Made by a program: the position numbers and the translations under genes
Shown here: in pieces, positions 30,561-59,417 of the stretch
How the letters are laid out: each line of letters opens with the position of its first letter
How positions within the stretch are numbered: the first letter of the stretch is position 1
The notes under the pieces: generated by a model
What the model was told of the DNA's origin: nothing
What the model saw: only the letters and a program-made list of their open reading frames with translations
The model's database searches: none
From: Tardiphaga robiniae
Lineage (GTDB): Bacteria > Pseudomonadota > Alphaproteobacteria > Rhizobiales > Xanthobacteraceae
Direction: 5' to 3'
DNA: 64,000 nt
Assembly (NCBI RefSeq): GCF_013359755.1
Contig: NZ_JABMCJ010000072.1
Coordinates: forward strand, 124,001 to 188,000

Positions 30561-30796
30561 CCGCCTCCTCTGGCCAGTGGAATTCTGCATGCGAAACGGG
30601 GCCCGGACAAACGATCAAGATGAATGCGACCGAACACGTAGCAGCACGGAAGGCTGGACGTCCACATCGCCCGTACAACCCCGATGGCCGAGCTCGCCAG
30701 GCGCCCTGCACACGGGTTGAGATCGGAGCCAAGACGCTTCCAGCCGCTAAAATCTCGATCGCAAAGCGGACAAGCCAACCATTGCTGATTCCGAAG

Positions 30797-34657: not shown

Positions 34658-34734
34658 AATTTACGGCAAAGCTATTGCGAATATTGGCGGCAAATATTTT
34701 GCCGCTGCGCGGCGACTGGATCAAGGTGCAGCAT

Positions 34735-37137: not shown

Positions 37138-37146
37138 GGACAAGCG

Positions 37147-38346
37147 ATGCCTGATGCCGTCCTTGTCGTGAATTCCGGCTCCTCAAGCATTAAGCTTGCG
37201 CTATTCGATATCGTATCAGATGGAGAGCCGAGATTGCTCTGCCGGGGGAGTCTGGACGAGCACGACGCCGAGCCGCGCCTGACGATCAGGGAGACCGACG
37301 GGGCCATTCTCTATGATCGGCATCGCAAGGTCGCGGACGGCCACGGAGAAGAACTGCTGCTTGATGCGTTGAATTGGGTCGATGGCTATCTTGCCAGTGA
37401 CGATCTGGTTGCAGTTGGTCATCGCGTTGTCCATGGCGGATTGGCCTTCGCAGCGCCGGTTCGATTGACGGGATCGATAGTCAATGAGCTTGAAAAACTG
37501 ACACCGATAGCGCCACTGCATCAGCCACGCTGTCTATCGCCGATACGTGCGATCATGACCGAAAGGCCGGAACTGCCCCAAATCGCCTGCTTCGACACGG
37601 CGTTCCACCACTCACTTCCCGCCTCCGCCACCCGCTTTGCCATTCCACGCCAGCTCCATGACGCCGGCATCCGCCGCTATGGATTTCACGGCCTATCATT
37701 CGAGTTCATTGCCGGACGATTCCTGGAACTCTCACCATCTTGCGCCGAGAAACGATGCGTTGTCGCGCATCTGGGTAGCGGCGCCAGCCTATGCGCCATG
37801 CGTGGAGGCGCCAGTATCGACACCACGATGGGCTTCACACCGCTCGACGGCCTGGTGATGGCTACCCGCTGCGGCGCCATTGATCCCGGCGTGCTCCTCT
37901 ATCTGCAGCAAGAGCGCGGAATGTCGGCAACCGACCTCGAAAATCTGCTCTATCGAGAATCCGGGCTACTTGGAGTGTCGGGACTATCAGGCGACATGCG
38001 AGCACTGCTTGCCAGCAAAGACCCGCATGCCTCCGACGCCATCGATCTGTTCGTGACGTCCATCGCCAGAGAAACAGCGATGATGGTCAATAGCCTTGGT
38101 GGCATGGAGTGCCTGATCTTCACAGGGGGGATTGGAGAGCACGCACAGGAAATTCGACGGCGCGTTTGCGAGCGGATGAGCTGGCTTGGCTTAACCGTCG
38201 ATGCAGACGCAAACGATGCAGGATCCGCGTGCATCAGCACTTGGGATAGCAGTGTTGAAATACGGATCATTCCGACGAACGAGGAATTGGTCATCGCGCG
38301 TTATTGCGTAAGGAACCTAGCTGATAGCATCTCCGATCCAGCCTAG
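37147..38346 (+). CDS. ackA: Acetate kinase
   Basis: 399 residues, normal length, with phosphate-binding NSGSSSIK at 9-16, GHRVVHGG, FHGLS and FTGGIGEH. It makes ATP and acetate from acetyl phosphate. The operon with phosphoketolase gives substrate-level ATP from sugar phosphates, useful under low oxygen, which fits the upstream Fnr-type box. Confidence 0.97.
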   Translation: MPDAVLVVNSGSSSIKLALFDIVSDGEPRLLCRGSLDEHDAEPRLTIRETDGAILYDRHRKVADGHGEELLLDALNWVDGYLASDDLVAVGHRVVHGGLAFAAPVRLTGSIVNELEKLTPIAPLHQPRCLSPIRAIMTERPELPQIACFDTAFHHSLPASATRFAIPRQLHDAGIRRYGFHGLSFEFIAGRFLELSPSCAEKRCVVAHLGSGASLCAMRGGASIDTTMGFTPLDGLVMATRCGAIDPGVLLYLQQERGMSATDLENLLYRESGLLGVSGLSGDMRALLASKDPHASDAIDLFVTSIARETAMMVNSLGGMECLIFTGGIGEHAQEIRRRVCERMSWLGLTVDADANDAGSACISTWDSSVEIRIIPTNEELVIARYCVRNLADSISDPA

Positions 38347-40823: not shown

Positions 40824-41855
40824 CTATCGCTTCCCCGGACGGCCGAAGCTGCCGACCCGCTCCCGCTCTGACAACAACAGGCTGATCAGTCCTGCGGGCC
40901 GGAACAGGATGACCAGCAGCAGCAATACGCCAAGAATGATCGGCCAGATGTCCTGATAGCTGTTCGACAGCCAGAAGCTGACGGCCTCAATGACGACCGT
41001 GCCGATCACGGCGCCGATCAGCGTGCCGGAACCGCCGAACAACACATAGAGCACCACCTGGGTGGAAATCACGACACCCAGCATGTTGGGCCAGACGAAG
41101 CCTTCGTGAAACGCATAGAGACTGCCGGCGAGCCCAGCGATAGCCCCGCTCAGCGAAAAGATGATCGCCTTGAGGTGCTGCACCTTGTAGCCGAAGAAGG
41201 CGATGCGCTGTTCGTTCTCGCGCAGGCCGGCCAGCGCGAGGCCGAATTGCGAGCGCATCAGGAAACGACAGAGCAGATAGACCACGATCAGGAAGCCGAT
41301 GGCCATGTAGTAATAGACAGGTCCCTCTGTGAGCTCATAGCTGCCGATTGTCATCGGCGGGATCGAGGGAATGCCGTTCTGGCCGCCGAGATAGTACCAG
41401 CCCCGCGCCAGACGATCGCAGGCATAGGAACCGGTCAGCGTGCCCAGCGCGACGAAGATGACGCTGGCGGGATGGCGACCAAGCAACAGAAAGCCGCCGA
41501 GCAGCAGCGCAAAGGCGAAGCCGATCAGAAGGCCGGCGGGCAGCACGAGCAGGATGGACGTAATGCCAAGATCGCGCGCCAGCAGCGCCACGCCATACCC
41601 GGCCGAGCCGAAAAACACAGCTTGGCCGAAACTCATGATTCCGGCATAGCCCCAGACCAGGTCGAATGACAGCGCGAACAGGCAGAGGATCAGCACGCGC
41701 GTGGCATAGACGGTGAGATAGTCCTGCAGCACTAGCGGCAGCAGCAGGCCAATGACCAGCACTGCGATCTCGATCATCGGCAGCACGCGCCATTGGCGAG
41801 ATGCGCTGATGCCTCGCGTCAGAGATACGGTAGAGAGTGGCGTCGTCTCGGTCAT
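40824..41855 (-). CDS. livM: Branched-chain/amide-type ABC transporter permease
   Basis: 343 residues, multi-spanning. The SFDLVWGYAGIMSFGQAVFFG stretch and the C-terminal conserved loop near NEQRIAFFGY mark the LivM permease family. It forms the membrane channel with LivH. The 71-base gap to the binding-protein gene shows no obvious terminator. Confidence 0.94.
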   Translation of the reverse strand: MTETTPLSTVSLTRGISASRQWRVLPMIEIAVLVIGLLLPLVLQDYLTVYATRVLILCLFALSFDLVWGYAGIMSFGQAVFFGSAGYGVALLARDLGITSILLVLPAGLLIGFAFALLLGGFLLLGRHPASVIFVALGTLTGSYACDRLARGWYYLGGQNGIPSIPPMTIGSYELTEGPVYYYMAIGFLIVVYLLCRFLMRSQFGLALAGLRENEQRIAFFGYKVQHLKAIIFSLSGAIAGLAGSLYAFHEGFVWPNMLGVVISTQVVLYVLFGGSGTLIGAVIGTVVIEAVSFWLSNSYQDIWPIILGVLLLLVILFRPAGLISLLLSERERVGSFGRPGKR

Positions 41856-41926
41856 CAGGTCGCCGGCATGAGAGAAAGAGAAGCGGGAGTGATATCGGCC
41901 ACTCCCGCGAGGTTCGAACTATCGAC

Positions 41927-43147
41927 TCAGCATTCCTTGGGATCGACGAGACCGGCGCTGCGCGCGACGACTTCATACTTTCCGCCCTTGGCCACAGCCG
42001 TATACATCTTCATCTTGCAGTGCCGCTGACCGGGGACCATCTCGGCTGGACCGCCCGGGCCTTCGGCGATCTTGGCATGGTCGAGTGCCTTGGCAACTGC
42101 ATCTCGATCGACACTGCCGGCTTCCTTGACGGCCGCCTCCCACAGTTTCAGGCCGCGATAGGTGCCGGTCGCGGCACTGCCAGCCGCGAACAGGAAATTG
42201 CCCGGGAACTGTTTTTCGTAGGCCGCCTGGAGCTTGGCACTGAACGGATCTTCCGGCGTCAGCGCCTTGAAGTAATCGAGGCAGCTTGCGAGGCCCTCGA
42301 TTTCGGCCGGCTGATTGATGCTGAGCGTGTTCTCGTCATAGTAGACGCAGGCGAGCCGTCCGCCATTCTTGAGGAAGCCTGCTTCGGAGAGCTGCTTGAA
42401 GAACGGTCCGACACCTGGCGGAATGACGGTGTTGAAGACGACATCGACCTTGTTCGAAATGATGCGGTTCACGGTCGACGAAAAATCGATCTGGTCGAGC
42501 GGGTAGTATTCCTCGAACACGACCTCGCCGCCATTGGCCTCGATCACCTTGCGCGCATAGACGTTCAACGTGTGCGGCCAGACGTAATTGGCACTGGGCA
42601 ACGCAAACTTCTTGCCGCCATTCTTGATCAGCCAGGGGATGAATTCGTCACATTGCTGCGCCGGCGTCGGCCCGGTGCAGAACAGATAGGGCGTGCACTC
42701 CTTGCCCTCATAGAGCTGCGGATAGATATAGAGCGTCTTCCCGCGGGAGACGATGACGTCCTTGATGGCGTTGCGCATCGACGAGGTGATGCCGCCGATG
42801 ACCAGATCGACCTTCTCGCGCTGGATCAGCTTACGCACATTGCCGACCGCGACGGATTCATTGGACGCAGTGTCCTCGATATACAGTTCCAGCGGCCGAC
42901 CCAGCAGTCCGCCGGCATCGTTGATGTCCTTGATCACCATCCTGGCCACATTGGCGTCAGCATTGCCGGCATAGCCCATCGGCCCGGTCAGATCGGTACC
43001 GACACCGACCTTGATGGGTCCGGCAGCCGCGTTGGCCCAGCCTGCGGGGATGACCCAGCTGCCGACGCCGGTGGCGATGGCCGTACCGAACAGCGCCGCA
43101 TTGCCGAGAAAGCGGCGACGGCTGAGAGTGTTGGCGTCTTGAGACAT
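41927..43147 (-). CDS. ABC transporter substrate-binding protein (amide/urea type)
   Basis: 406 residues from ATG 43147 with a twin-arginine-like signal (SRRRFLGNAALFG). The mature protein resembles the periplasmic receptors of the AmiC / FmdD / UrtA branch of type I binding proteins (DLTGPMGYAG, YPQLYEGKECTPY, YVWPHTLN). With amidase and formamidase genes nearby, short-chain amides or urea are more likely ligands than branched-chain amino acids; this is inference. Confidence 0.9.
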   Translation of the reverse strand: MSQDANTLSRRRFLGNAALFGTAIATGVGSWVIPAGWANAAAGPIKVGVGTDLTGPMGYAGNADANVARMVIKDINDAGGLLGRPLELYIEDTASNESVAVGNVRKLIQREKVDLVIGGITSSMRNAIKDVIVSRGKTLYIYPQLYEGKECTPYLFCTGPTPAQQCDEFIPWLIKNGGKKFALPSANYVWPHTLNVYARKVIEANGGEVVFEEYYPLDQIDFSSTVNRIISNKVDVVFNTVIPPGVGPFFKQLSEAGFLKNGGRLACVYYDENTLSINQPAEIEGLASCLDYFKALTPEDPFSAKLQAAYEKQFPGNFLFAAGSAATGTYRGLKLWEAAVKEAGSVDRDAVAKALDHAKIAEGPGGPAEMVPGQRHCKMKMYTAVAKGGKYEVVARSAGLVDPKEC

Positions 43148-43151
43148 TGGA

Positions 43152-44009
43152 CTAAACCCCTTTTCCTGCAACGAGGCCCTGCGGCCGGAATTTGATGAAG
43201 ATGATGGCGAGCACGAATACGGCGACATCGGCGATAACGGGCGAGATGACCCAGGGCAGCGCCGCACTCAGCGTGCCGATCAGGCCTGCGCCGGCCACCG
43301 GTCCGGCAAAGGAGCCGATGCCGCCGACCATGACGGCGACGAAGCCCTGAATCAGAAAGCGAATGCCGAGATCGGCGAACAGCGTGAACACCGGCACGAT
43401 CAGCGCGCCGGCCAGACCTGCGAGCGCGGCGCCGAACGCGAAGGTTGCGCCATAGATTGCGTTGGTCGAAATGCCGGAGGCTCGCGCCAGCGCCGGGTTC
43501 TCCAGCGAAGCGCGGATGCGCAGGCCGAACGCGGTGCGCGCCAGAAGCAGATAGCTCCCTGCCATCACCAGCGCAGTGATCACGATGATCACCAGACGCC
43601 AGGTTGAGAAATGCATGCCGCCGATGGCCACCGAGCCGCCGACCGGCTCCGGCACCGAGAGATACAGTCCGCCGATCAGGCCGCGCACGATCTCGCGAAT
43701 GATCAGTCCGAGCGCATAGGTACCGAGCATGGCGACGATCGGCGCAGCATAGAAGCGCCGGACGATCAGCCGCTCGAGCACGAAGCCCAGTGCGCCGACA
43801 ACAAATGGTGCCGCGACCATACCGAGCCACACCGGCAAACCCGCTGTGTGAACAATGTAGGTGACATAGGCCCCGAGCAGAACGAACTCGCCCTGCGCGA
43901 AATTGAAGATGCCCATCATGCTGGCGATGATCCCCAGCCCCAGCACGACCAGCACGACGATCGCCCCGAAACTGGCGATCTCGAAGATCGCCATGATCAG
44001 ATTATCCAT
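43152..44009 (-). CDS. livH: Branched-chain/amide-type ABC transporter permease
   Basis: 285 residues, about eight membrane segments, with GIFNFAQGEFVLLGAY near the start and ASGISTNAIYGATFAFG later, both LivH marks. It pairs with LivM. Just upstream of the receptor gene, with 4 bases between; the amidase gene precedes it by 35 bases, so all six genes from amidase to livF likely share a transcript. Confidence 0.94.
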   Translation of the reverse strand: MDNLIMAIFEIASFGAIVVLVVLGLGIIASMMGIFNFAQGEFVLLGAYVTYIVHTAGLPVWLGMVAAPFVVGALGFVLERLIVRRFYAAPIVAMLGTYALGLIIREIVRGLIGGLYLSVPEPVGGSVAIGGMHFSTWRLVIIVITALVMAGSYLLLARTAFGLRIRASLENPALARASGISTNAIYGATFAFGAALAGLAGALIVPVFTLFADLGIRFLIQGFVAVMVGGIGSFAGPVAGAGLIGTLSAALPWVISPVIADVAVFVLAIIFIKFRPQGLVAGKGV

Positions 44010-44044
44010 GCGCGATCACCGACCCTCGTCTCCGCATGGATGCC

Positions 44045-45559
44045 TCACATCGTCTTCCAATCGGCGGACTGCTCGAAAGCGTGCGCGGCGCGATAGATGG
44101 TCATCTCATCGAAATGCTTGCCGACCAGCATCAGCCCGACCGGCAGACCATCGACCATGCCGCAGGGGATCGACATCGCCGGATGATGCGAGATGTCGAA
44201 GGGCGAGGTGTTGGAGATCATCTCGAAGGCGCGGCCGACGACTTCTTCACGCGGCGCGCCGGGCGCCGGCAGCGGTGTCGCCTTCATCGGTGTGGTCGGC
44301 ATCAGCAACAGATCATAGCTCGCCAGTGCCTTGTCATAGGCAGCTGTGACACGACGCGAGATGTTCAGTGCTTTGCCGTAAAAACGAGGGCCGAAATTGT
44401 TATTGATATAGGTGCCGAACAGCAGCAGCAGTTTGGTGGTTTCGGACAGCGAGTCCGCCTGCCCGCGCCAGCCGCGATGGGCATCCATCAGCGAGGTCGA
44501 ATAGAGATCCGACCGACTGAGGCCATAGCCGTCCCCCACCATCATGGTCTGGGTCATGCCTTCGGTGCCGATCGGCGTCCAGACCGCCGCCGCGGTGAGA
44601 TGCATCGGGATCGAGATCGTCTCCACTGTCGCGCCCAGATCGGCGAAGCGCTTGGCCGCTTCGCGAACGCTGCGGTTGACCGCATCCTCGGCGCCGAGCT
44701 GCTCGAAACCTTCCTTGACGATGGCGATCTTCATGCCCTTGACACCGGCGCCGAGCGCCTTGGTGTATTCCGGCACTTCCGGCGACTTGATCCGCGGATC
44801 ATAACCGTCATCGCCGGCAAGCACTTCCAGCAACAGCGCATTGTCGGCGACATTGGATGTCATCGGGCCGGTGTGATCGACGAAAATCTCGATCGGCATG
44901 ATGCCCGTATAAGGCACCAGACCCCAGGTCGGCTTCATGCCATAGGTGCCGGAGAAGGACGACGGCATGCGGATGGAGCCGCCCTGATCGCCGCCGATTG
45001 CCATGTCGACTTCGCCAAGCGCCACGACAACGGCGCTGCCGGACGAAGACCCGCCGGCGGAATAGCCCATCTTGTGCGGGTTATGCACGTTACCCGTCGA
45101 ATTGGTGTGGCTGCCGCCGGACATGCAGAAGGATTCGCAATGCACCTTGCCCATGATCTCGGCGCCGGCATCCAGCATGCGCGTGACGATGGTAGCGTCG
45201 AAATCCGGCACATAGCCTTCCAGCGTGGAGGAGCCGTTCATCATCGGCACACCGGCCAGCATGATGTTGTCCTTCAGCGCGACGGTCTTGCCCTTGAGCT
45301 TGCCGCTGGGCGCACCCTTCACCACCGACTTGCGATACCAGGCGTTGCGCGTGTTCTCTTCCGGCGCGGGCCGATAGCCAGGTGTACGCGGATATTTCAC
45401 TTCGGGTACTTCGTCGGGCATCGCCGCCACGACGTTGTAGGCATCGACGGATCCCTGCATCAGCGCGCGGAACGAGGTGACGTCCTCATCGGACAGCGCG
45501 AGGCCGCACTGATCGGCGACGGCGAGGAGTTGATCGGGAGTGGGAAGTGAAACGGCCAC
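44045..45559 (-). CDS. Amidase (amidase signature family)
   Basis: 504 residues. The Ser-cisSer-Lys triad is K96 (ALKDNIM), S171 (GGSSSGS) and S195 (GGSIRMPS), the same numbering as the Rhodococcus J1 amidase. It hydrolyses amides to acid and ammonia in the cytoplasm. First gene of the transporter operon; a terminator-like hairpin sits in its leader at 45624-45647. Confidence 0.95.
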   Translation of the reverse strand: MAVSLPTPDQLLAVADQCGLALSDEDVTSFRALMQGSVDAYNVVAAMPDEVPEVKYPRTPGYRPAPEENTRNAWYRKSVVKGAPSGKLKGKTVALKDNIMLAGVPMMNGSSTLEGYVPDFDATIVTRMLDAGAEIMGKVHCESFCMSGGSHTNSTGNVHNPHKMGYSAGGSSSGSAVVVALGEVDMAIGGDQGGSIRMPSSFSGTYGMKPTWGLVPYTGIMPIEIFVDHTGPMTSNVADNALLLEVLAGDDGYDPRIKSPEVPEYTKALGAGVKGMKIAIVKEGFEQLGAEDAVNRSVREAAKRFADLGATVETISIPMHLTAAAVWTPIGTEGMTQTMMVGDGYGLSRSDLYSTSLMDAHRGWRGQADSLSETTKLLLLFGTYINNNFGPRFYGKALNISRRVTAAYDKALASYDLLLMPTTPMKATPLPAPGAPREEVVGRAFEMISNTSPFDISHHPAMSIPCGMVDGLPVGLMLVGKHFDEMTIYRAAHAFEQSADWKTM

Positions 45560-45623
45560 GATGATTTCTCCTAATATCCACGATGCAACCGGCGCGGTAT
45601 TTCTTCGGGGATGCCCACACCGA

Positions 45624-45647
45624 AAAGGCGACGACGGTGTCGCCTTT
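45624..45647 (-). terminator. Terminator-like hairpin in amidase leader / after the receptor gene
   Basis: A 9-base-pair stem AAAGGCGAC / GTCGCCTTT with a 6-base loop. On the minus strand it ends in CTTTT. It may terminate the receptor gene (stop at 45727), or act as an attenuator 65 bases upstream of the amidase start. An AT-rich block at 45660-45700 lies upstream and may hold the amidase promoter. Confidence 0.45.
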
Positions 45648-45726
45648 CACGCATCATTAGAAAGAGAAATATTTTCCTTTTCAAGTATTATTTTTCGGGA
45701 TCGTCCTGATCGGGTCTGCGACTGAC

Positions 45727-46908
45727 CTAGAATGTCCGGATGAGCCTGAAATCCAGACCGTCTGCTTCGGCAAGATAGATCGGCATTTTCGCCCGCCCGC
45801 CGCGCATGCTGACCTCACCGCGGGCGCCGTGATAGGCCACGCTGGACGCCGCGTTCAGCATCGGCCGGACGTCGAATGAGCCCGCCTTGGTCGCCACGGA
45901 TTCGAGAAACCTAAGCCCCTCGTAATTCGACTGCGCGACCGATCCCGGCACAGGCGCACAGCGTCCGAACGATGCTTCATATTGCGCACGGAATGCATCA
46001 TTCGCCGCCGACGCACGGTCGACGAAATAGCCCGATGCACAATAGAGCCCCTCGGAGCTATCCGCGCCCATGCCGAGCAGCAGCGTTTCATCCATGGCCC
46101 CCGCCAGTCGGAGAACCTTCGACGAGAGACCATGTTCGGCGAAGGCGCGGTTGAACACGATGCTGTCGGTGCCGATCAGCGAGATGACCACGACATCCGG
46201 CTTGGCGGCCCGGATACGGGCGATCTGGGCATCGTGATTCTGCTCGCCAAGCGCAACGAATTCCTCACCCACCACGCGCCCTCCGGCACCGGCGATGTAT
46301 GTCTTGGTGGCCTTGTGGGCCAGCCACGGCCAGACGTAATCGCTGCCGATCAGATACCAGCGCTTCGCCTTCTTTTCATTCGCCAGCCATTCGATGGCCG
46401 GGCGCGACTGATCGCGCGGCGTCTCGCCGATCGCCATCACGCCGGGCGTGCGTTCTCCGCCTTCATAGACAGGCGTATAGATATAGGGCACGCGCCCGGC
46501 GATCACCTTGCGCAACGCGACGCGGACCGCGCTGATATGCGAGCCCATGATGACATCGACATCGCCAGCCGCGATCATGTCGGCTGCCGTGCGGACAACG
46601 CCATCGATATCGCCGCCGGCGTCATGAAACACCGGCTCGATCTCGCGCCCGAGAATGCCGCCGCGCCGATTGATCTCCGATGCCGCGAGCATCATGCTAT
46701 TGGTGCCCGCCAGGCCCCAGATCCCGGCCGGGCCGGACAGGCCGATAAAATTGACGACGCGCAGCTTTTCGCGATTGCGACGCCGCGGAAACAGATCGGG
46801 ACGTGCAATCGCGTCACGACCTTCCCCGCTGTCCTGAAAGCCCTTCAGCAACCATGGCGCCGGCATCGGCAGCGCGCCGGTTGTTGCAATCTGCAGTGAC
46901 GAGAGCAT
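45727..46908 (-). CDS. Signal-less type I periplasmic-binding-fold protein (AmiC-like?)
   Basis: 393 residues. The fold is that of amide/urea receptors (DVIMGSHISAV, YIYTPVYEGGERT, YLIGSDYVWPW), but the N terminus (MLSSLQIATTGALPMP, then charged residues) has no signal peptide. In Pseudomonas the homologous AmiC is a cytoplasmic amide sensor that controls amidase. This protein may do the same, or be an exported protein with an atypical start. No AmiR-type ANTAR partner was seen nearby. Confidence 0.8.
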   Translation of the reverse strand: MLSSLQIATTGALPMPAPWLLKGFQDSGEGRDAIARPDLFPRRRNREKLRVVNFIGLSGPAGIWGLAGTNSMMLAASEINRRGGILGREIEPVFHDAGGDIDGVVRTAADMIAAGDVDVIMGSHISAVRVALRKVIAGRVPYIYTPVYEGGERTPGVMAIGETPRDQSRPAIEWLANEKKAKRWYLIGSDYVWPWLAHKATKTYIAGAGGRVVGEEFVALGEQNHDAQIARIRAAKPDVVVISLIGTDSIVFNRAFAEHGLSSKVLRLAGAMDETLLLGMGADSSEGLYCASGYFVDRASAANDAFRAQYEASFGRCAPVPGSVAQSNYEGLRFLESVATKAGSFDVRPMLNAASSVAYHGARGEVSMRGGRAKMPIYLAEADGLDFRLIRTF

Positions 46909-47010: not shown

Positions 47011-47024
47011 CGATTCCCGTGCAT

Positions 47025-47519
47025 ATGGATCAGGCAAAGTCGCTTAATATTCATCACCCCTTCCAGCAAAGTCTCCCAGCCGTGGCCAAATCGCCGAGCA
47101 CGCCCATCACCGAACACCTCGCTTATCTGCTGGCGCAGGCGAACCGGGAGATTAATCGCCAGCTCGATGCTCGCTTCAAGAAGGAAGGCGTGCCGGTCGA
47201 ACAGTGGCGCATTCTGAAAGTGCTGTCTGACGGTAAGGGCCACTCCATGGGCGACCTCGCCGATGCGGTTCTGCTGAATCATCCGACCCTGACCAAGATG
47301 GTCGATAGGATGGTGTCTGATGCACTGGTCTACCGGGTGCAGGACCCCGACGACCGCCGCAAGGTGGTGATGTTCATATCCGACCGCGGCAAGACACTAA
47401 CCCAGCGGCTGAACTCGCTGGCGCTGAGCCAGGAAGCCCATATCGCCGAGAACTACGGCAACAAGGCAACGGCCGACCTGAAGCGCCTGCTGGAAAGCCT
47501 GATCGAAAAGGCGAACTAG
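47025..47519 (+). CDS. MarR-family transcriptional regulator
   Basis: About 164 residues from ATG 47025. A winged helix is seen: EQWRILKVLSDGKGHSMGDLADAVLLNHPTLTK as helices 2-4, then DPDDRRKVVMFISDRG as the wing, which is a strong MarR mark. It is divergent from the receptor gene at 46908 and probably controls it and the amide genes. No ribosome site is obvious; GTG at 47019 is also possible. Confidence 0.93.
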   Translation: MDQAKSLNIHHPFQQSLPAVAKSPSTPITEHLAYLLAQANREINRQLDARFKKEGVPVEQWRILKVLSDGKGHSMGDLADAVLLNHPTLTKMVDRMVSDALVYRVQDPDDRRKVVMFISDRGKTLTQRLNSLALSQEAHIAENYGNKATADLKRLLESLIEKAN

Positions 47520-47544: not shown

Positions 47545-47931
47545 TTATCTGGGCCGTCGACAAACTAGGTCGATTTCGATCAGAGCGTCATAAGCGAGGC
47601 CCGTGACGCCGACACAGGTCCGCGCCGGCAAACGATCCGGCGGAAAATAGCTGCGATAGGTCTCGTTCATCGCCACGTAGTCGCGCTTGAATTCGGTGAG
47701 ATAGATCCGCGTCATGGTGATGTGCTCGAAGCCGAGATCGAGCCCCGCGAGCACCACGCGCAGATTTTCCATCACCGCTTCGGTCTGTGCCACGATGCCA
47801 TCGGGCAGCACGCCCGGCATTGCCGGCGTGTCCGGCATCTGCCCGGTGACGAACACGAAGCCGTCGGCCTCCACAGCATGGCTGAACGGCGCGACCGGCT
47901 TCGGCCCGCCGGAGATCATGTGAAATTGCAA
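47545..47931 (-). CDS. RidA-family protein
   Basis: 128 residues. PVAPFSHAVEADGFVFVTGQ and TRIYLTEFKRDY and the C-terminal AYDALIEIDLVCRR fit RidA, with the arginine in PARTCVG. RidA proteins deaminate reactive enamines or imines made by PLP enzymes. TTG 47931 has GGAG 8 bases upstream; ATG 47919 is the alternative. It follows the formamidase gene by 18 bases. Confidence 0.9.
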   Translation of the reverse strand: MQFHMISGGPKPVAPFSHAVEADGFVFVTGQMPDTPAMPGVLPDGIVAQTEAVMENLRVVLAGLDLGFEHITMTRIYLTEFKRDYVAMNETYRSYFPPDRLPARTCVGVTGLAYDALIEIDLVCRRPR

Positions 47932-47949: not shown

Positions 47950-50310
47950 TTATGATTTTGACGTGTGATCGAACACCCGCTTGCTCAGAATGGCATGAAC
48001 GCCCCAATTGCCGTCGACAACCTGCGTCACGCCGAAGTCGACGGCGACCGACATCAACGCGATCGCCTCATCCTCGGTGAGACCTTTGATGTTCATCAGG
48101 AAGCGCCGCATCTTGCGAAAGGCGTCCTTCATCGCGAGATCGAGCGACGAGGTCGCATAGACCTCGCTCTGCCCCTTGGCGCCGAATTCAGCGAGATAGT
48201 TCGGATGGCTGAAGCCCATCAGCACCCAGTCACTCTCGGTCTCGATCAGCGGATAAGTGAGATCGGCGAACGCCTGGCCGGCGAGATTGCCCTTCTTGTG
48301 CAAGACCACCTGGAAGGTTCCGGTCATCGAACATTCGATCGCCGTGCCACCGAGTTCACCGTCGCCCTGCGCGGCATGGGGATCGCCGACGGACAGCAAT
48401 GCGCCGGGCACCGATACCGGCAGATAGACCGTCGATCCCTTGCCGAGCCGCCAATTGTCGAGATTACCGCCAAAATAGGCTGGCGGCACTGAATCGACGA
48501 GATCGGCCTCTCGCGGCGCGACGGCAATGACACCGAAATGTGGACGCAGAGGAATGCGAATGCCGTCGAGCACGTCATGCCGACGCCGCACAGAGGCCGG
48601 CGTAATCGGAATGCCCGGATAATCGTAGGTATTGTGCACGGTGCCGAACGGATCGGTCTGCGGCTCCCAGCGATACGAGTAGAGCGCGCGCGCATATGGC
48701 ACGTCGTCGTGATCGAGAATTTCGTAGATCGTCACCGCCTCACGCGTATTCTGCTCGGCGAGAAATTCCTTGTAGTGATAGCCCCACCACGCCGCGACGC
48801 TACTGCCGAAAACCTGACCGTCGAAATCCGGATTGCGACTGGCGCGCGGCACGATGTCGAGGATGCGAATTTCCAGCACATCGCCGGGCTGCGCGTCCCT
48901 GATCGCCACCGGCCCGGTGCAAATGTGGACGCCAAAGCCCTCACCGGCCCCACGGCCATAGATCGAGGCGTCCATCGGACCGGCCCCGCGGCGATCGACA
49001 TTCTTCTGATCGCGCGTCCAGCAGAACACGCTCTCAGCGCCGATATCGCCCTTGATCATCCGCTCGGGATCGTCGGATGCGTGCTGCGTCAGTGTTTCGA
49101 TGGTGATCGTGTCGCCGGAATTGATCTCGATCTGCGGCGGCAACGAGCGGCTGAAATACCCCCAGTGCACGCGAGATGCATCGGCGGCAAGATGATGGTG
49201 CCGGAGATTCTTCGAAGCATCCGCGATGCCGTGCGTGATCGTCTCGGCCGGCTCCGGCTGCGCAATCTTCCCCGTGGTCGACGGCGCGTGCTGGCTGCGC
49301 AACTGCGCCAGCGCTTCCTGCGGCCATCCGCGTTGTCCCGCCGCCGTCGCCGATGCCGTCAGGCGCTCGGCTTCATTCTGGCGGAATTCGCGCGGCGACA
49401 GGCCGAAGCGGTGACGGAACGTGCGGCTGAAATGCGCGGAGTCATTGAAGCCGGCACTAAAGGCAATCTCGGAAATCGAGTGATTTGCCTCGGACGGATT
49501 CGACAGATCGGCCCAGGTGCGCTGCAGCCGGCGTTCGCGCAGGTAATGCGTAAAGCTGCTGCCGGTGCCTTCGAATAGTTTCTGCAGATAACGTTCGGAG
49601 ATGCCCTCGGCCTGCGCCACCTTGGCCGGCGTCAGATCCGCATCGTCGAGGCGTCGCTCGATGGTTTGGCACAGCCGATGCAAGGTCGCCGCCTTGGTCG
49701 CCGTGCCGCTGTTGAGATCGGCCGTCGGCTCGGCCAGTTGACGTGTAAAGGTCGGCAACAGATCGGCAAGACTTTGTGCGATCGCCAACCATTCGGCATC
49801 GGACAATGTTTCGAGGTTGCGGGCCGCCTGTTCCATCATACGCGCGAACACGTCGCCGAAGCCGCCGGGGCCTATGATCTGGACATCGGGGATGGCGGGG
49901 GCACTAGCGCGGCGGCTGTGCAGCGGATCGGACGTCACCGAGAGCACCACCGCGCGCATGTCGCGCTGGAATGCGACGCTCCAGTCCCCTTTGCGGGGCA
50001 GCAACAGCAGATGCCCGACGGCGACGATCTGATGTCCGGCGGTGGTCTTCAGTGCAACACCGTCCTCGAGCGGCAGCAATACGAGGGGATGATCGCTGGC
50101 CAGATCCGACAATGGCGAGATCGCCTGTGCGCCGGCAGACAATTTGGCCAGTGCAATACCTTCGAAGGTGCGACGAACTGCGGTGGCGTGACCGTGATGC
50201 GTGGTCGTCGCAGCCGTCGGCTGCAGGCCAATCGAACTCAGGACGTCGCGCCATGCTTCGGGGCGGTCGTCTTCAGAGTAGGATTCACTGGTGAACGGAC
50301 GGAGGCTCAT
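47950..50310 (-). CDS. AraC-type regulator fused to acetamidase/formamidase
   Basis: A single open frame of 786 residues from ATG 50310 (MSLRPFTSES). Residues 1-200 are a ligand-binding-like AraC N-terminal domain, 207-310 an AraC helix-turn-helix pair (LTPAKVAQAEGISERYLQ; ISEIAFSAGFNDSAHFS; FGLSPREF), and 368-786 a full-length acetamidase/formamidase (VHWGYFSRSLPP, GDPHAAQGDGELGG). The enzyme part is as long as the separate 413-residue copy downstream of the neighbouring genes. No stop or frameshift separates the halves. It may be a bifunctional enzyme/regulator that senses its own substrate. Confidence 0.88.
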   Translation of the reverse strand: MSLRPFTSESYSEDDRPEAWRDVLSSIGLQPTAATTTHHGHATAVRRTFEGIALAKLSAGAQAISPLSDLASDHPLVLLPLEDGVALKTTAGHQIVAVGHLLLLPRKGDWSVAFQRDMRAVVLSVTSDPLHSRRASAPAIPDVQIIGPGGFGDVFARMMEQAARNLETLSDAEWLAIAQSLADLLPTFTRQLAEPTADLNSGTATKAATLHRLCQTIERRLDDADLTPAKVAQAEGISERYLQKLFEGTGSSFTHYLRERRLQRTWADLSNPSEANHSISEIAFSAGFNDSAHFSRTFRHRFGLSPREFRQNEAERLTASATAAGQRGWPQEALAQLRSQHAPSTTGKIAQPEPAETITHGIADASKNLRHHHLAADASRVHWGYFSRSLPPQIEINSGDTITIETLTQHASDDPERMIKGDIGAESVFCWTRDQKNVDRRGAGPMDASIYGRGAGEGFGVHICTGPVAIRDAQPGDVLEIRILDIVPRASRNPDFDGQVFGSSVAAWWGYHYKEFLAEQNTREAVTIYEILDHDDVPYARALYSYRWEPQTDPFGTVHNTYDYPGIPITPASVRRRHDVLDGIRIPLRPHFGVIAVAPREADLVDSVPPAYFGGNLDNWRLGKGSTVYLPVSVPGALLSVGDPHAAQGDGELGGTAIECSMTGTFQVVLHKKGNLAGQAFADLTYPLIETESDWVLMGFSHPNYLAEFGAKGQSEVYATSSLDLAMKDAFRKMRRFLMNIKGLTEDEAIALMSVAVDFGVTQVVDGNWGVHAILSKRVFDHTSKS

Positions 50311-50438
50311 GCATCGACCTTCATAGCCGAAGCGAAGCAACCTCCGTGCCATCCCGAAGGACGCAGCGCCTTGCCCTGCAACTTCCCCGATCACCGCGCC
50401 ATCATCCTCATAGCCGAATTCAGTGCAATTTCATCCGC

Positions 50439-51725: not shown

Positions 51726-53336
51726 TCACGAGACTTCCGCCTCCATCGCATTGAGGAAACGCTGCGCGACGGGATTGCGCGGATTGGTCAGGACTTCACT
51801 CGCTGGGCCTTCCTCGATGATCGCTCCTCCGGCGAGCAGCACCACACGGTCGGCCACTTCGCTGGCAAAGCGCAGCTGATGCGTCGAGATGATCATGGTC
51901 AGGCCGTCCTCAACGGCGAGGCGGCGGATCACTTCGAGCACTTCATTGACCAGTTCGGGATCGAGCGCCGAGGTCGGCTCGTCCAGCAACAGCACGCTCG
52001 GATTGGGCGCGATGGCCCGGGCAATGGCGACGCGCTGTTGTTGGCCGCCGGACAGATGCCGTGGCAGCGCATCCGCGCGATGGCTGAGCCCGACGCGCGC
52101 CAGGAGTTCATCGGCCCGACGATCGGCATCGGCGCGCGCGACGCCGTGCACCCAGCGCAGCGGGCCGGCAATGTTCTCCTTGGCCGTGAGGTGGCCGAAC
52201 AGGTTGAACTGCTGGAACACCATGCCGACGCCGACCTCGGCGCGAGCATTCGCGAGCAGCCGCGGCGACAGCGGCTTGCCATGCGCGTTGAAGCCGAGCT
52301 GGCGGCCGGCGACCTTGATGGCGCCGCCGTTCCACAGTTCGAGATTGTTGATACAGCGGAGCAGCGTGCTCTTGCCGGAGCCACTTGGTCCGAGCAGCGC
52401 GATCACTTCACCGATCCTGACCGTGATGTCGACGCCATCGAGCACCACGTTCCTGTCGTAGCTCTTGCGGAGATCGGAGACCTCGACAGCGACATTGTTG
52501 CGCGCCAGCATCTCGGCGCGTTTGATGGGATCGCCGCGTTCCGGCCGCATCCGCGGCGGCGGTAATTCCGCAATGCCACCGTCGGGCAGGATTTCCGACG
52601 GCATGTCGACCTGCGGCGCCAGCGGATCGTCGCTGCCAGGCGCGCGATACCATGGCATGACGCGCATGAATTGGTTCTGCCCGGTCGTGCGATCGAGGTC
52701 GAACTTCCATTCCAGAAGCAGCTGGATGCCCGCGATCGCCGCTGTGAGCAGCAGGTAGATCAGACCCGACGCGAAGAAGATCGAAAAGAAATCGAAGGTC
52801 GAGGACGCCAGTTGCGTCGAGCGCAGCGTCAGCTCCTGCACGGCGATGACGGAGGCCAGCGACGAATTCTTCAGCGCGCTGACCGCTTCGTTGCCGAAAG
52901 CGGGGATCATCGACCGGATCGCCTGCGGCGCGATGATCCGGCGCATCAGGACGCCCGGGGTCATGCCGAGCGCCTGGCCGGCCACCACCTGACCGCGGTC
53001 GACGCCGAGCACGCCGGAGCGCAGCATCTCGGCGATGAACGGCGCTTCGTTGCAGGCCAGCGCCAGGCCGGCGGCGAGAATGGCGGGAAGCTTGATGCCA
53101 ATCTGCGGCAGGGCATTATAGGCAAACACCATCTGCAGGATCAGCGGGGTGCCGCGAAAGATCACGGCATAGACCCGGGCGAAGGATGCCAGCGGCTTGA
53201 ACCTGCTGAGTTGCATCCATGCCAGGATCACACCGAGGATCAGCCCACCGCACAGACCGAGGGCGGTGACCTGCAAGGTCGCCTGGATACCCTCGATCAT
53301 ATACGGCATGCTGAGATAGTGGAGGAACAGCTCCAT
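51726..53336 (-). CDS. Polar amino-acid ABC transporter, permease-ATPase fusion
   Basis: 536 residues. N-terminal permease (about 1-215) with the EAA-type loop GQALGMTPGVLMRRIIAPQA. Then a proline-rich linker, and an ATPase from 282 with Walker A GPSGSGKS at 316-323, LSGGQQQRVAIARA and LLLDEPTSALD. The two functions are normally separate HisM- and HisP-like proteins. Together with the family 3 receptor upstream, it forms a minimal importer. Confidence 0.92.
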   Translation of the reverse strand: MELFLHYLSMPYMIEGIQATLQVTALGLCGGLILGVILAWMQLSRFKPLASFARVYAVIFRGTPLILQMVFAYNALPQIGIKLPAILAAGLALACNEAPFIAEMLRSGVLGVDRGQVVAGQALGMTPGVLMRRIIAPQAIRSMIPAFGNEAVSALKNSSLASVIAVQELTLRSTQLASSTFDFFSIFFASGLIYLLLTAAIAGIQLLLEWKFDLDRTTGQNQFMRVMPWYRAPGSDDPLAPQVDMPSEILPDGGIAELPPPRMRPERGDPIKRAEMLARNNVAVEVSDLRKSYDRNVVLDGVDITVRIGEVIALLGPSGSGKSTLLRCINNLELWNGGAIKVAGRQLGFNAHGKPLSPRLLANARAEVGVGMVFQQFNLFGHLTAKENIAGPLRWVHGVARADADRRADELLARVGLSHRADALPRHLSGGQQQRVAIARAIAPNPSVLLLDEPTSALDPELVNEVLEVIRRLAVEDGLTMIISTHQLRFASEVADRVVLLAGGAIIEEGPASEVLTNPRNPVAQRFLNAMEAEVS

Positions 53337-53385: not shown

Positions 53386-54306
53386 TTACTTCACCGTCAG
53401 CAGGCCGGGCTCCATCAGGTTTTCCGGATCGAGTTTCCACTTCTTCAGCAGTGCGAGCTGATCACCGGACTTGTAGATCTCGGTGAGTGCGGCCTTCACC
53501 GCATCGCGGAACTTGGGCTTGTCCTTCGGCACGGCGATGCCGACCTGATAGGGGATCGTCACCGCGACCGCCTTCTCGAGCTTGTCCGGATAGGCCTTCA
53601 CCGCGTTGTCGACGGTGTTGACGTCATTGATATAGGTATCAGCGCGGCCGGCAAGGATCGCCTGGATGCAGTTGGCATTGTTGTCATAGAGCTGGATGGT
53701 CGGCTCGGCCTTGCCTTCCTTCTTGCATTCCGGCCCCAGCGCCTGGATCAGCGGCACTTCGACATAGCCCGTGTTTTCCGCCGCAGCCGTGCCGCACAGC
53801 GAGGTGTTGATACCGGTGATCTTCTTAGGGTTACCCTTGGCGACGAGCACGCCGTCGAACACCTTGGAATAGGTGATGAAGTCGGCGGCCTTGGCGCGCT
53901 CCTCGGTGGCATAGATGTCGGAAATCACGATGTCGGCCTGACCCGATGCCAGCGTGGTCAGCAAGGCCGCGAAGGTCACAGCCTTGTAGGTCAGCTTGAA
54001 GCCAAGGCATTCGCCGATCTGCTCGCCGAGATCGATATCGAAACCGATATATTTGTTGGGATCCTTGGGATCGATCGATTCATAGCCCGGTGTATGCGGA
54101 TTAATGGCGTTGACGAGTGTCTTGCCTTTCCAGTCCGGAAATTTTGCCTGCAATTCCGCGCAAGCCGCCGGCACGGCCGCCTGCGCGGACATCGGAACAA
54201 AGGTGCCGACCGCCAATAGCGCGCCCACTGCCGCCGCACGCCATCCGATCATCGCGCCCGTTTCAGGCCAAAGCCTACGGATGTCAGTAAAATGCAACTT
54301 GACCAT
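53386..54306 (-). CDS. ABC transporter substrate-binding protein, family 3
   Basis: 306 residues with a signal peptide (about 15-43, ending SAQA). GFDIDLGEQIGECLG, VTFAALLTTLASGQADIVIS and EERAKAADFITYSKVFDG fit polar amino-acid receptors. Upstream of the permease-ATPase fusion by 50 bases in the same direction. Ligand is likely an amino acid or amide such as an amidated amino acid; unproven. Confidence 0.92.
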   Translation of the reverse strand: MVKLHFTDIRRLWPETGAMIGWRAAAVGALLAVGTFVPMSAQAAVPAACAELQAKFPDWKGKTLVNAINPHTPGYESIDPKDPNKYIGFDIDLGEQIGECLGFKLTYKAVTFAALLTTLASGQADIVISDIYATEERAKAADFITYSKVFDGVLVAKGNPKKITGINTSLCGTAAAENTGYVEVPLIQALGPECKKEGKAEPTIQLYDNNANCIQAILAGRADTYINDVNTVDNAVKAYPDKLEKAVAVTIPYQVGIAVPKDKPKFRDAVKAALTEIYKSGDQLALLKKWKLDPENLMEPGLLTVK

Positions 54307-54718
54307 TCGATCGCTCCTTCGACGTTGTCATGGCCTGAACCATGTTCCTAACCTCGAAGAAGCCTACGGGCGCATGTCCGCAGAAAGCTTGTCCCGGGAC
54401 GTACAATAATTTGGATCGTCCGCTCCCATGATTTGGGCAGAGCTGCCACATTAATGGGCGATGGCGGGGATCTTACCAGGCGGATCTTATCTGCCGCATG
54501 TCGGCTGCGCGCCAGAGAGGGCGTCGAGCCCTCGGCTCAGCCGTGCAGTCAACGCTGTGAGTATTGTCGCGACAAAGCAGCGGGCCGATCGCAGCGACGC
54601 CGAAGCGCGATTATTCGGGTGACCCACCAAGTCGAAGCCCCTTGCCGGAGCAAATCTACTAATAGCAACGCCGGTAGCGACATGTCGCCACCGGCGGATA
54701 CTCATATGCTGTGTTGAC
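54307..54718. other. 412-base intergenic region between transport and C1 genes
   Basis: No convincing gene on either strand. It carries the terminator-like hairpin at 54669-54696 that ends the gfa/frmA/xox transcript, and must hold the promoter of the receptor gene at 54306, for which no consensus is clear. Confidence 0.5.
54669..54696 (-). terminator. Terminator-like hairpin after gfa
   Basis: The outer stem CGCCGGT / ACCGGCG (7 pairs) encloses the inner dyad GCGACA-TGTCGC. On the minus strand it follows the gfa stop by about 22 bases and is followed by a T-containing tract (TTGCTATTA). A likely end of the C1 operon, though the U-tract is weak. Confidence 0.5.
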
Positions 54719-55282
54719 TCAGGCCGCTTTGGCCGTTGCCACGTGATTGGCGAGGACATCCATCAGCGCAGGCGAAAGGCAATCATAAGGCTCGAGTCCC
54801 AGTTCCTTGAGGCGCGACCGTATTGCGGTCATGTCGCTCGGCTTCACGCCGGATTCAATCACCGACGAGACGAAGGCGGCGAAGCCCGGTGCGGCCGAGC
54901 CGGATTCTTCGAATAATTCAGGATGAATGAAGTCGAGGCCATAGAACGCATGTCCCTTGTTCTCGATGCGGCCGAACATGTGGGTGCCGCATCCGGTGCA
55001 GGCATGACGCTGGATGGTTGCGGCCTGATCGACGATGCGCAGCTTGTCGCCGTTTTGCAGTACGGTGACGTTTTCGCGCGGAACCACTGCGACGACAGAG
55101 AACGTCGCGCCGCTCGGCTTCCAGCACTTGGTGCAGCCGCAGGCGTGGTTATGAGCGACGTCGCCTTTGACACCAACCTTGACCGGCTTGTCGCTGCATT
55201 TGCAGACCAGCGTTCCGCCCGCAAAATGGCCTGAACCTTGTTTGACACCGCCGTCAACGGACGGGTGGATATGAACAGTCAT
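54719..55282 (-). CDS. gfa: Glutathione-dependent formaldehyde-activating enzyme
   Basis: 187 residues from ATG 55282, which has AGGAGG 8 bases upstream. Zinc-binding [15 protein letters not shown] and [13 protein letters not shown] are the Gfa signatures. It promotes formation of S-hydroxymethylglutathione from formaldehyde and glutathione. It follows the formaldehyde dehydrogenase gene by 76 bases and acts in the same step. Confidence 0.95.
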
Positions 55283-55358
55283 CAGTCTATCCTCCTGGTA
55301 TGATGCGTCACTTGTGTGAAGCATTGTTGTATTGGCACTCTGGTGTTGCAGCCTGCAT

Positions 55359-56498
<1,140 letters not shown>

Positions 56499-57164: not shown

Positions 57165-58970
57165 TCACTGTGGGAGTGCAAAGACCGTCAGCGCGCCGCC
57201 GAGTGCGGTATAGTTGGTCAGGGCTGCGTAACCACCGACGGCACCGAGACCGGCAGTCGGATCCGTCAGACCCGCTGCGAGACCGATGCCGGCCCAGCCG
57301 CCGACGCCTGACAGGACGGCGATATACTGCCGGCCATTGTTTTCGTAGGTGGTGACGTTGCCGATGATGCCGGACGGAGTCTTGAACTTGTAGAGTTCCT
57401 TACCCGTCTTGGCATCGACCGCCTTCAGGTAGCCTTCCAGCGTCCCGTAGAACACCACGCCACCGGCAGTGGCGAGCGCCCCCGACCAGACCGAGAACTG
57501 TTCCTTGTTGGACCAGACGATCTTGCCGGTCTTGTTGTCCCAGGCAATGAAGTTGCCCATATGGGTTTCGCCCGGAGGTGGATACATCGACAGCGTCGCA
57601 CCCACATAAGGCTGGCCGGCGGTGTAGTTCACCTTGAACGGCTCATAGTCCATGCAGACATGGTTGGTCGGCACATAGAACAGCTGGGTATCCGGCGAAT
57701 AGGCTCCGGGTTGCTGATCCTTGGTGCCGAGTGCCGCCGGGCAGACGCCCTTGGTGTTGACGTCTTCACCTTGCTTCTCGGTGGAGTACTGATCGACCAC
57801 TTTCGGACGGCCATAGGTCGGCGACGACTTGTTCATGTCGACACCGGTGGTCCAGTTCACCTTCGGATCGTATTTTTCGGCAACCAGCAATTCACCGGTG
57901 ACACGGTCCATGGTGTAAGCGAGGCCGTTACGATCGAAATGCGTCAGCAGCTTGCGGTTTTGGCCGTTCATCTGCTGATCGCTGAGGATCATTTCGTTGA
58001 CGCCGTCATAGTCCCATTCGTCATGCGGAGTCATCTGATAGACCCACTTGGCCATGCCTGTGTCGGCATCGCGCGCGAAGATGGTCATTGACCACTTGTT
58101 GTCGCCCGGCCGTTGCTTCGGATTCCAGGTCGAGGGATTGCCCGAGCCGTAATAGACGAGGTTCAGCTCCGGATCGTAGGAGGTCCAGCCCCAGGTGCAG
58201 CCGCCGCCGATCTTCCACTGATCGCCTTGCCACGTCTTGATGCTGGAGTCCTTGCCGACGGGCTTGCCGAGTGCGGTGGTCTTCTCCGGATCCACCATGA
58301 TCTGGTCGTCCGGTCCTTCCGAGAAGGCGCGCCAAGCGAGCTTGCCGGTCTTCAGGTCATAGGCAGTCATGTGGCACTGAACGCCGAATTCGCCGCCCGA
58401 GATGCCGATCAGGACCTTATCCTTGACCACGAGCGGAGACGACGTGCCGGTTGCACCCTTGCCAGGGTCGCCGTTCTTGACGGTCCAGACTTCCTTGCCG
58501 GTCTTAGCGTCGAGTGCGACCAGCGTGGTATCGGCCTGGTGCAGGAAGATCTTGCCATCCGCATAGGCAACGCCGCGATTGACGGTGTCGCAGCACATCA
58601 CCGGAATGACGTTCGGATCCTGCTTCGGTTCATACTTCCAGACGATCTTGTTGTCCTGCGACAGGTCCATTGCGTAGACCTTGTTTGGGAACGGCGTATG
58701 CACATACATCATGTTGCCGATGATCAGCGGACCGCCTTCGTGGCCGCGCAGAACACCGGTAGAGAAGGTCCAGGCCACCTGCAGCTTGCCGACATTAGCC
58801 GCCGTGATCTGGTTCAGCTTCGAATAGCGCGTATTGGCGTAGTCGCCCGCTGGCATGACCCAGTCTTTCGGGTTCTGCGCCATCTTTGTCAGTTCATCAT
58901 TGGCGATGGCAACGCCTGCGGCAGAGGCCGCCATTGTGCCAAGACAGGTCGCAAGCAGCACCTTTCGCAT
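57165..58970 (-). CDS. xoxF: XoxF, lanthanide-dependent methanol dehydrogenase
   Basis: 601 residues from ATG 58970 ([10 protein letters not shown]), with GGGAGGA upstream and a signal peptide ending near residue 23. A PQQ-binding eight-bladed propeller; catalytic D320 and the second aspartate D322 in DYDG (the lanthanide-coordinating residue missing from calcium-type MxaF), with vicinal cysteines C127-C128. It oxidises methanol to formaldehyde in the periplasm. Longer frame to 59189 is not used. Confidence 0.97.
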
Positions 58971-59417
58971 CGTGATGTCCTCCCAGACATAATGCCGGGT
59001 CTCGTCAAGCGGCCCAGCTTCATTTTGGTATCTATGAGTAGCAAGATCCGCTGCTGCATACTTGCCCAAGAGCGAAGCAGGCTTGCTCGACAGAGAACCC
59101 GTGCAAGATAATTTTCTCGTACATTGACGAAAAACCTGAACGGTATCTGGAAAGCCCGCGCCTTTCGCACTGCACACGGATCGCCGCACTGCGACCTAAG
59201 GGTGATGTTTCACTTGACGGGGCTGGTATCGAGTCAGAGGATCGACAAGGAGAAGTGAGTTACTCTGACCACAATTCACGAGCTGCGGGCTGTGCCGTTA
59301 CATATTGTTTCGCACATTTTTCCATATGTGCTTCGTTCGATATGTGCTTCGTTCTGTAAGTATAGTTCCGTCTCGTGACGAATTGTTACGTGATGACCTT
59401 TCATCGGTGAATTGTTC
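58971..59417. other. 447-base divergent regulatory region xoxF / AraC gene
   Basis: Contains no gene. It must hold both promoters. The main feature is a direct repeat at 59324-59354. The AT-rich segment around 59300-59420 is nearer the AraC gene. Confidence 0.5.
59324..59354. repeat. Tandem 15-base direct repeat, probable regulator site
   Basis: ATATGTGCTTCGTTC occurs exactly twice, 59324-59338 and 59340-59354, at a 16-base period, with a partial third element just upstream (CATATTGTTTCGCAC). AraC-family proteins bind such direct repeats, and the AraC gene starts 64 bases away, so autoregulation or xoxF control is likely. The assignment is inferred. Confidence 0.55.

Follow-up and report, generated by a model that had tools for sequence, protein, structure and literature searches.

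Can a whole enzyme be turned into the sensor of a transcription factor? This question is raised by a gene of Tardiphaga robiniae (contig NZ_JABMCJ010000072.1), the product of which joins an AraC-type regulator to a complete domain of the acetamidase/formamidase (FmdA) family. The gene lies in a window of 64,000 nucleotides, by which we mean the whole stretch of DNA that was analysed. An initial annotation, made from this sequence, had proposed a transcription factor that carries the enzyme consuming its likely inducer. Comparison with related genomes leads us to a somewhat different answer. The fusion is probably a dedicated one-component regulator of its own operon, in which the FmdA-fold domain serves as the sensor.

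The fusion protein

The fusion is encoded in one uninterrupted frame on the minus strand, exactly where the initial annotation had placed it (Table 1). A GTG start at 50394 would lengthen the protein from 786 to 814 aa. The ATG at 50310 is the likelier start, because its methionine is shared by at least 90% of the 42 fusions in one alignment (A2). Pfam and structure matches agree that an AraC N-terminal domain, a helix-turn-helix (HTH) and a full FmdA domain share one chain, as had been annotated. Pfam recognised AraC_binding_2 (28.4 bits, cut-off 27), HTH_18 (77.9 bits; HTH_AraC reached 42.5 bits) and FmdA_AmdA (PF03069; up to residue 780, 106 bits), with both the family score and the fold supporting the last. 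HTH_18 and FmdA_AmdA were each matched in all 42 members of A2.

The regulator and the enzyme-like half are connected by a linker with pLDDT values below 50 across residues 323-366. It nevertheless contains R327, G328 and P330 (R-G-x-P), which are invariant in 39/39 and 78/78 aligned fusions of two overlapping sets; the larger alignment left out three of the 80 loci described below, in which the fusion frame has at most 740 aa (L157, L168, L192). The R-G-x-P motif was not seen in an unfused AraC protein of the same genome, for which one sequence was compared (L004).

The fusion scored 61.1 bits with the NCBIfam formamidase model (NF045496), for which the equivalog cut-off is 500. We rejected a canonical formamidase on account of this wide gap, and “formamidase” would be a loose label for the protein. 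The formamidase/acetamidase identity, like turnover of the inducer as the signal, is a hypothetical part of the initial proposal, whereas the gene linkage and the fusion-tracking motif described below do give the protein the look of a local regulator.

Table 1. Positions of the fusion, its parts and neighbouring features in the window.
Feature	Position	Strand	Basis
Predicted operator upstream of the operon, 29 bp	54387..54415	minus	matrix score 29.9
Family 3 solute-binding protein, first gene of the presumed operon	53386..54306	minus	Pfam
Polar amino-acid type ABC permease and ATPase in one chain	51726..53336	minus	profile matches
Stand-alone FmdA paralogue, 413 aa	50439..51680	minus	Pfam
AraC-FmdA fusion, 786 aa	47950..50310	minus	ORF, Pfam and relatives
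AraC_binding_2 (cupin-like) N-terminal domain, residues 37-186	49753..50202	minus	Pfam and fold match
AraC helix-turn-helix domain, residues 232-311	49378..49617	minus	
Flexible linker, residues 321-366	49213..49350	minus	alignments and pLDDT
Complete FmdA-fold domain, residues 367-783	47962..49212	minus	
Codon 409, Gln (His in aligned stand-alone relatives)	49084..49086	minus	
RidA-family protein, last gene of the presumed operon	47545..47931	minus	profile matches
MarR-type gene beside the amide/urea-type cluster	47019-47519	plus	
Urea/branched-chain type solute-binding proteins	41927-43267, 45727-46908	minus	
Amidase, PRK07235 subfamily	44045-45559	minus	
Permease-like frame	43152-44009	minus	
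Branched-chain type permease	40824-41855	minus	
GFA-family gene	54719-55324	minus	
Zinc alcohol dehydrogenase beside the GFA-family gene	55359-56474	minus	
PQQ-type dehydrogenase	57165-59189	minus	

Gene neighbourhoods of the fusion

On the minus strand, the genes follow each other in the order solute-binding protein, ABC permease-ATPase, FmdA, fusion and RidA. From this order and the spacing we infer that the five genes form one operon. The separate FmdA just upstream of the fusion, which the initial annotation had also reported, is 57% identical to the fused domain. It is presumed to be cytoplasmic, because its frame starts at the FmdA domain and has no signal region.

The same gene set was found beside the fusion in other genomes. 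Among the best-scoring 80 named loci, which were chosen by score, so that counts over them are no measure of frequency, 65 combine the fusion with FmdA and with solute-binding and ABC proteins that are both at least 60% identical. RidA is also present in 53 of these 65 loci. In several Betaproteobacteria (L189, L198-L200) the order or direction of the genes has changed and the set has not. One locus of the operon type (L081) has a fragment of the ABC gene, and lacks both the solute-binding protein and the operator site.

Other fusions have different neighbours. In eight loci (L109, L110, L114-L119) an FmdA with a Tat motif lies opposite the fusion. In five more (L106, L107, L108, L113, L120), a TRAP transporter and a gamma-glutamyltranspeptidase are located opposite a paralogous fusion, as identified by Pfam on L106 and by clustering in the others. 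A group of divergent fusions (L101-L105, L111, L112) is accompanied by varying sets that include a shorter FmdA, a XapX-type protein or a dihydroxy-acid dehydratase. The amino-acid type transporter and RidA, together with the gamma-glutamyltranspeptidase elsewhere, hint that the ligand could be an amino-acid-like amide. For the TRAP-type neighbourhoods, the hint is that a gamma-glutamyl amide may be the ligand of the fusion.

Several other genes of the window were annotated. A second cluster of amide/urea type (40824-46908, minus strand) adjoins the operon. The genes between 54719 and 59189 look like a set for alcohol/C1 oxidation with formaldehyde handling. A phosphoketolase gene, directly followed by an acetate kinase gene, forms an apparent operon at 34675-38346 on the plus strand.

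The FmdA half as a candidate sensor

Conservation of the fusion is highest in its FmdA half. Over 39 fusions, the mean frequency of the commonest residue per column is 0.76 in the FmdA half, 0.64 in residues 201-320 and 0.44 in residues 1-200. In a tree of 127 tips, all 65 fused FmdA domains fall into one clade (support 0.913), separate from those of operon FmdA (0.997) and Tat FmdA (0.634). One fusion event is the simplest reading, because the fused domains form a single clade. The tree and the residue counts exclude empty, short or wrong-frame sequences (S_L003, S_L061, S_L069, S_L070, S_L072, S_L073), a distant member (S_L005) and further wrong-frame sequences (S_L066, S_L067, S_L071).

The family signature D643, H645, D650, E652 and E659 is invariant in both fusion sets. 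Residue 409 separates the fusions from their relatives. It is Gln in 62 of the 65 fusions and His in all 62 aligned stand-alone relatives (39 operon, 15 Tat or similar, 8 short type). A second, overlapping set of fusions gave Gln in 76/78, and a count by regular expression, with 37 unmatched sequences left out, gave 91 Gln and 3 His for fusions versus 0 Gln and 87 His for stand-alone proteins. The His is kept in three fusions, two of them without a partner FmdA in the fetched stretch (L184, L197) and one with such a partner (L118). A distant family member of the same genome (L005) has, by eye, Ala at this position. The His-to-Gln difference may point to a changed chemistry of the fused domain. 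L630 is also specific to the fusions; we rejected it as a lost catalytic residue, since distant solved members of the family carry Leu there.

Does the fused domain still work as an enzyme? In a true trigger enzyme, the FmdA domain would hydrolyse the inducer at a useful rate, and turnover, through the presence of substrate or the formation of product, would set DNA binding, with the signal ending by itself once the amide is exhausted. Such an activity would agree with the invariant signature, and with the similar conservation of the fused domain and the separate enzyme (72-92% and 70-95% identity, respectively, to those of the window in 18 complete operon-type loci). It would also suit the five TRAP-type loci, where no separate FmdA was found within the fetched stretch and, therefore, the fusion could be the enzyme. 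However, the Gln of most fusions occurs at position 409 in 0/62 of the stand-alone relatives, and 77 of the best-scoring 80 loci have a separate FmdA within the fetched stretch, so that a second enzyme is unneeded in them. Taken together, a true trigger enzyme is conceivable but unlikely. Some turnover of the ligand by the fused domain is possible, with the difference at residue 409 weighing mildly against it. For an FmdA-fold domain that acts as a sensor, the reading that we prefer, occupancy with slow or no turnover, by analogy with GabR, would be the likeliest mode, because most fusions differ by the His-to-Gln exchange in an otherwise preserved signature.

The sensor could also be sought at the other end of the protein. 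The N-terminal cupin-like domain might be the sole sensor, with the FmdA domain attached for the sake of co-expression, either as an enzyme or as a platform for oligomerisation. AraC_binding_2 was recognised in 40 of the 42 members of A2, and the N-domain of the fusion has a fold known from the AraC family, as indicated by structure matches to the N-domains of CuxR, BgaR and AraC. Against this speak three observations: among the folded parts of the fusion, the N-domain shows the lowest conservation, well below the FmdA half; the FmdA fusion is retained across loci of differing make-up; and the linker motif is invariant. We consider a sole sensor in the N-domain doubtful. If the FmdA half is the sensor, as we prefer, the N-domain may possibly provide a second sensing site.

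A predicted operator that tracks the fusion

AraC/XylS regulators bind direct-repeat sites at their target promoters. The upstream regions of the operon share a 29-bp motif, nCAA-N6-GTGCG-N6-GACAA[G/C]. A loose regular expression, composed after the sequences had been inspected, matched 82 of 84 operon upstream regions, 80 of them at the main spacing; this set is redundant, as both the fusion sets and the 84 upstream regions include near-identical genomes and overlap between analyses. The two upstream regions without a match (L093, L187) have a weaker copy of the motif, as found with a matrix that was built from 21 non-redundant operon sites. When this matrix was applied to the window, no position other than the predicted operator (Table 1) scored above 12.2 in the 64 kb. 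A search of the 6.3 Mb genome for the exact core pattern gave one match, that of this operon. Allowing up to one mismatch gave 9 matches in the genome versus 6 for a reversed control, and thus only the exact match is informative.

The motif is not confined to the operon. The operon-trained matrix had its top match of 17-18 kb in the gap beside the fusion in all 13 loci of the other types (8 Tat-FmdA, 5 TRAP), with p values per gap of 0.003-0.02 against resampled sequence. In the eight loci that pair a fusion with a Tat-FmdA, the scores lay between 9.7 and 28.2. For 13/13 FmdA genes, 12 of which have a Tat motif, taken from genomes without a detected fusion, the best score in the 1.5 kb upstream was between -6.0 and 5.4. 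As a background, 615 random 1.5-kb pieces of the loci, true sites included, had a median best score of -0.9 and a 90th percentile of 9.7, and 7.5% of them reached 13. Present where a fusion accompanies a Tat-FmdA or a TRAP transporter, and absent at the FmdA genes of genomes without a detected fusion, the motif follows the fusion and not one particular target gene. A matrix made from Alphaproteobacteria only gave a similar picture for all 16 betaproteobacterial loci, with its top match either in the divergent gap or where the FmdA or transporter genes begin. Several of these matches fall inside the longest-start frame, and the true start was taken to be further in, as judged from protein length.

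Although the conserved CAA-repeat motif tracks most fusions, the divergent group is an exception. No clear operator was found there by matrix. Two of its loci have weak, mutually similar variants upstream of XapX-type genes (L103, 12081-12109; L104, 5513-5541), which perhaps reflect a shifted DNA specificity. The matrix also gave no clear site in L181, and its top matches in L184, L194 and L196 are separated from the fusion or its FmdA by about 2 kb or more.

The distribution of the motif strongly suggests that the fusion is the protein binding it. Alternatively, another regulator could bind the motif, or the motif could be the core promoter, and the fusion would then be an enzyme that happens to share the operon. 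The 3' half of the motif, GACAAG, is by eye near a possible -35 box position, and binding by the fusion itself is a prediction. This explanation is, however, difficult to reconcile with the presence of the motif in 13/13 Tat-FmdA and TRAP loci with a fusion versus 0/13 FmdA genes without a detected one. Furthermore, a sigma-70 consensus scan of positions 54200-54720 yielded no promoter, for which reason we rejected a sigma-70 promoter at the operator. We judge a different binder, or a core promoter, to be very improbable, and retain the fusion as the presumed binding protein. A search against Rfam gave no match within the window at gathering scores.

Authenticity and spread of the fusion

The check for a hidden stop or frameshift found neither. 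Within the genus, 11 of 18 genomes, counting that of the window, contain a full-length match free of stops, at identities of 97-98% for four of them and 77-86% for another six. The remaining seven gave no match at 1e-30, meaning that they do not carry the two halves as split genes. A single broken copy was found, in a draft metagenome genome (L097/L157). Beyond the genus, matches to either the fusion or a stand-alone FmdA were obtained in 77 of 296 genomes of the family (at 1e-60), 44 of 397 of the order (at 1e-150) and 16 of 398 of the phylum (at 1e-60); these genome sets overlap, and the top two or three candidates were scored per genome.

A fusion frame is present in 80/80 of the best-scoring named loci, truncated or interrupted in three of them. 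The nearest of the named records is 86% identical to the fusion of the window and fits its probable placement in Tardiphaga. The loci include Tardiphaga, Bradyrhizobium, Rhodopseudomonas, Ancylobacter, Labrenzia/Roseibium, Martelella and Rhizobium, as well as Paraburkholderia, Caballeronia, Rubrivivax, Ramlibacter, Nevskia, Parvibaculum and others. From the genus names, we take the carriers to belong to the Alpha-, Beta- and Gammaproteobacteria, a wider recurrence of the architecture than one window would suggest. An artefact of assembly or gene calling, for which we found nothing to count, can practically be dismissed in view of full-length, uninterrupted frames in 11/18 genus genomes and in three proteobacterial classes.

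Proposed mechanism

Sequence comparison establishes the fusion itself, its conservation, its linkage to the neighbouring genes and the motif at the promoter. From these we infer how the regulator might work. The AraC HTH would bind the direct-repeat operator, with CAA boxes 22 bp apart around GTGCG, just upstream of an operon that serves to import and hydrolyse an amide-like compound. The FmdA-fold domain would derive from an amidase closely related to the enzyme that this operon encodes. The amide, imported by the transporter of the operon, or one of its breakdown products, would bind in the old active site of the FmdA half, in which catalysis is presumably reduced. Ligand binding would then change the state of the HTH via the flexible linker, and the uptake and hydrolysis genes would be made when the compound is present, that is, by activation rather than repression. 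A more far-reaching suggestion, which we offer tentatively and consider unlikely, is a widespread, apparently undescribed class of regulator, an amidase-fold amide sensor related to the enzyme of its own regulon, in which slow turnover, tuned by the change of His409 to Gln, would act as a timer that ends induction with the substrate.

Comparison with known regulators

In GabR, the aminotransferase-fold domain binds GABA as an external aldimine, which activates gabTD, the genes of GABA degradation, and further transamination-like catalysis is blocked (PMC6917764). MocR/GabR regulators resemble the fusion in combining an HTH and a linker with a whole enzyme-fold domain. They differ in their GntR HTH, aminotransferase fold and PLP, whereas the fusion has an additional N-terminal cupin-like domain, and Pfam detected in it AraC-type and FmdA domains only, with no GntR winged HTH or aminotransferase fold. 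A MocR-type regulator with a GntR HTH and an aminotransferase domain is itself encoded in the window (29085-30590, minus strand), as another fusion of an HTH with an enzyme.

BzdR, an XRE HTH with a shikimate-kinase-like domain, was proposed to stem from a fusion of HTH and enzyme, in which activity was lost and affinity for the inducer then gained (PMC3602430); its inducer, benzoyl-CoA, is not the substrate of the ancestral enzyme. BzdR is thus similar as a regulator proposed to come from an enzyme fused to an HTH, and different in both the HTH and the enzyme. The structure 3b9t, a Tat-pathway protein of the FmdA family from Methylobacillus flagellatus, has the same fold and 55-60% identity to residues 367-783, but no HTH and a His at position 409. 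FeaR, of the AraC/XylS type, shares the arrangement of N-domain and HTH, yet the fusion reached 110.9 bits with the FeaR model, below the cut-off of 199. AraC/XylS regulators such as FeaR are not known to carry an enzyme domain. The fmd cluster of Methylophilus methylotrophus encodes a formamidase, a putative regulator and a high-affinity uptake system for short amides and urea, and is induced by formamide and urea (PMC10781810). There, the regulator and the formamidase are separate products and the FmdA is of another subfamily.

Significance

Regulators with enzyme-like domains are known; the pairing of AraC with FmdA seems to be new, as do its operator and its distribution. The open-access PMC literature, judged by titles and abstract openings, yielded no description of such a fusion. 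In plasmid records, the fusion is mostly named “acetamidase/formamidase family protein”, in one case “AraC family regulator”, and in some cases no name is listed. Naming the protein after one of its halves hides a regulator of three proteobacterial classes, which include such genera as Bradyrhizobium and Paraburkholderia. With the regulator, the paralogous enzyme, the transporter and the predicted operator all known, the locus offers a directly testable case of an enzyme that became a sensor. In related loci, a regulator of this type is combined with an FmdA that is exported or with a TRAP transporter. A possible use of the fusion would be as an amide biosensor module.
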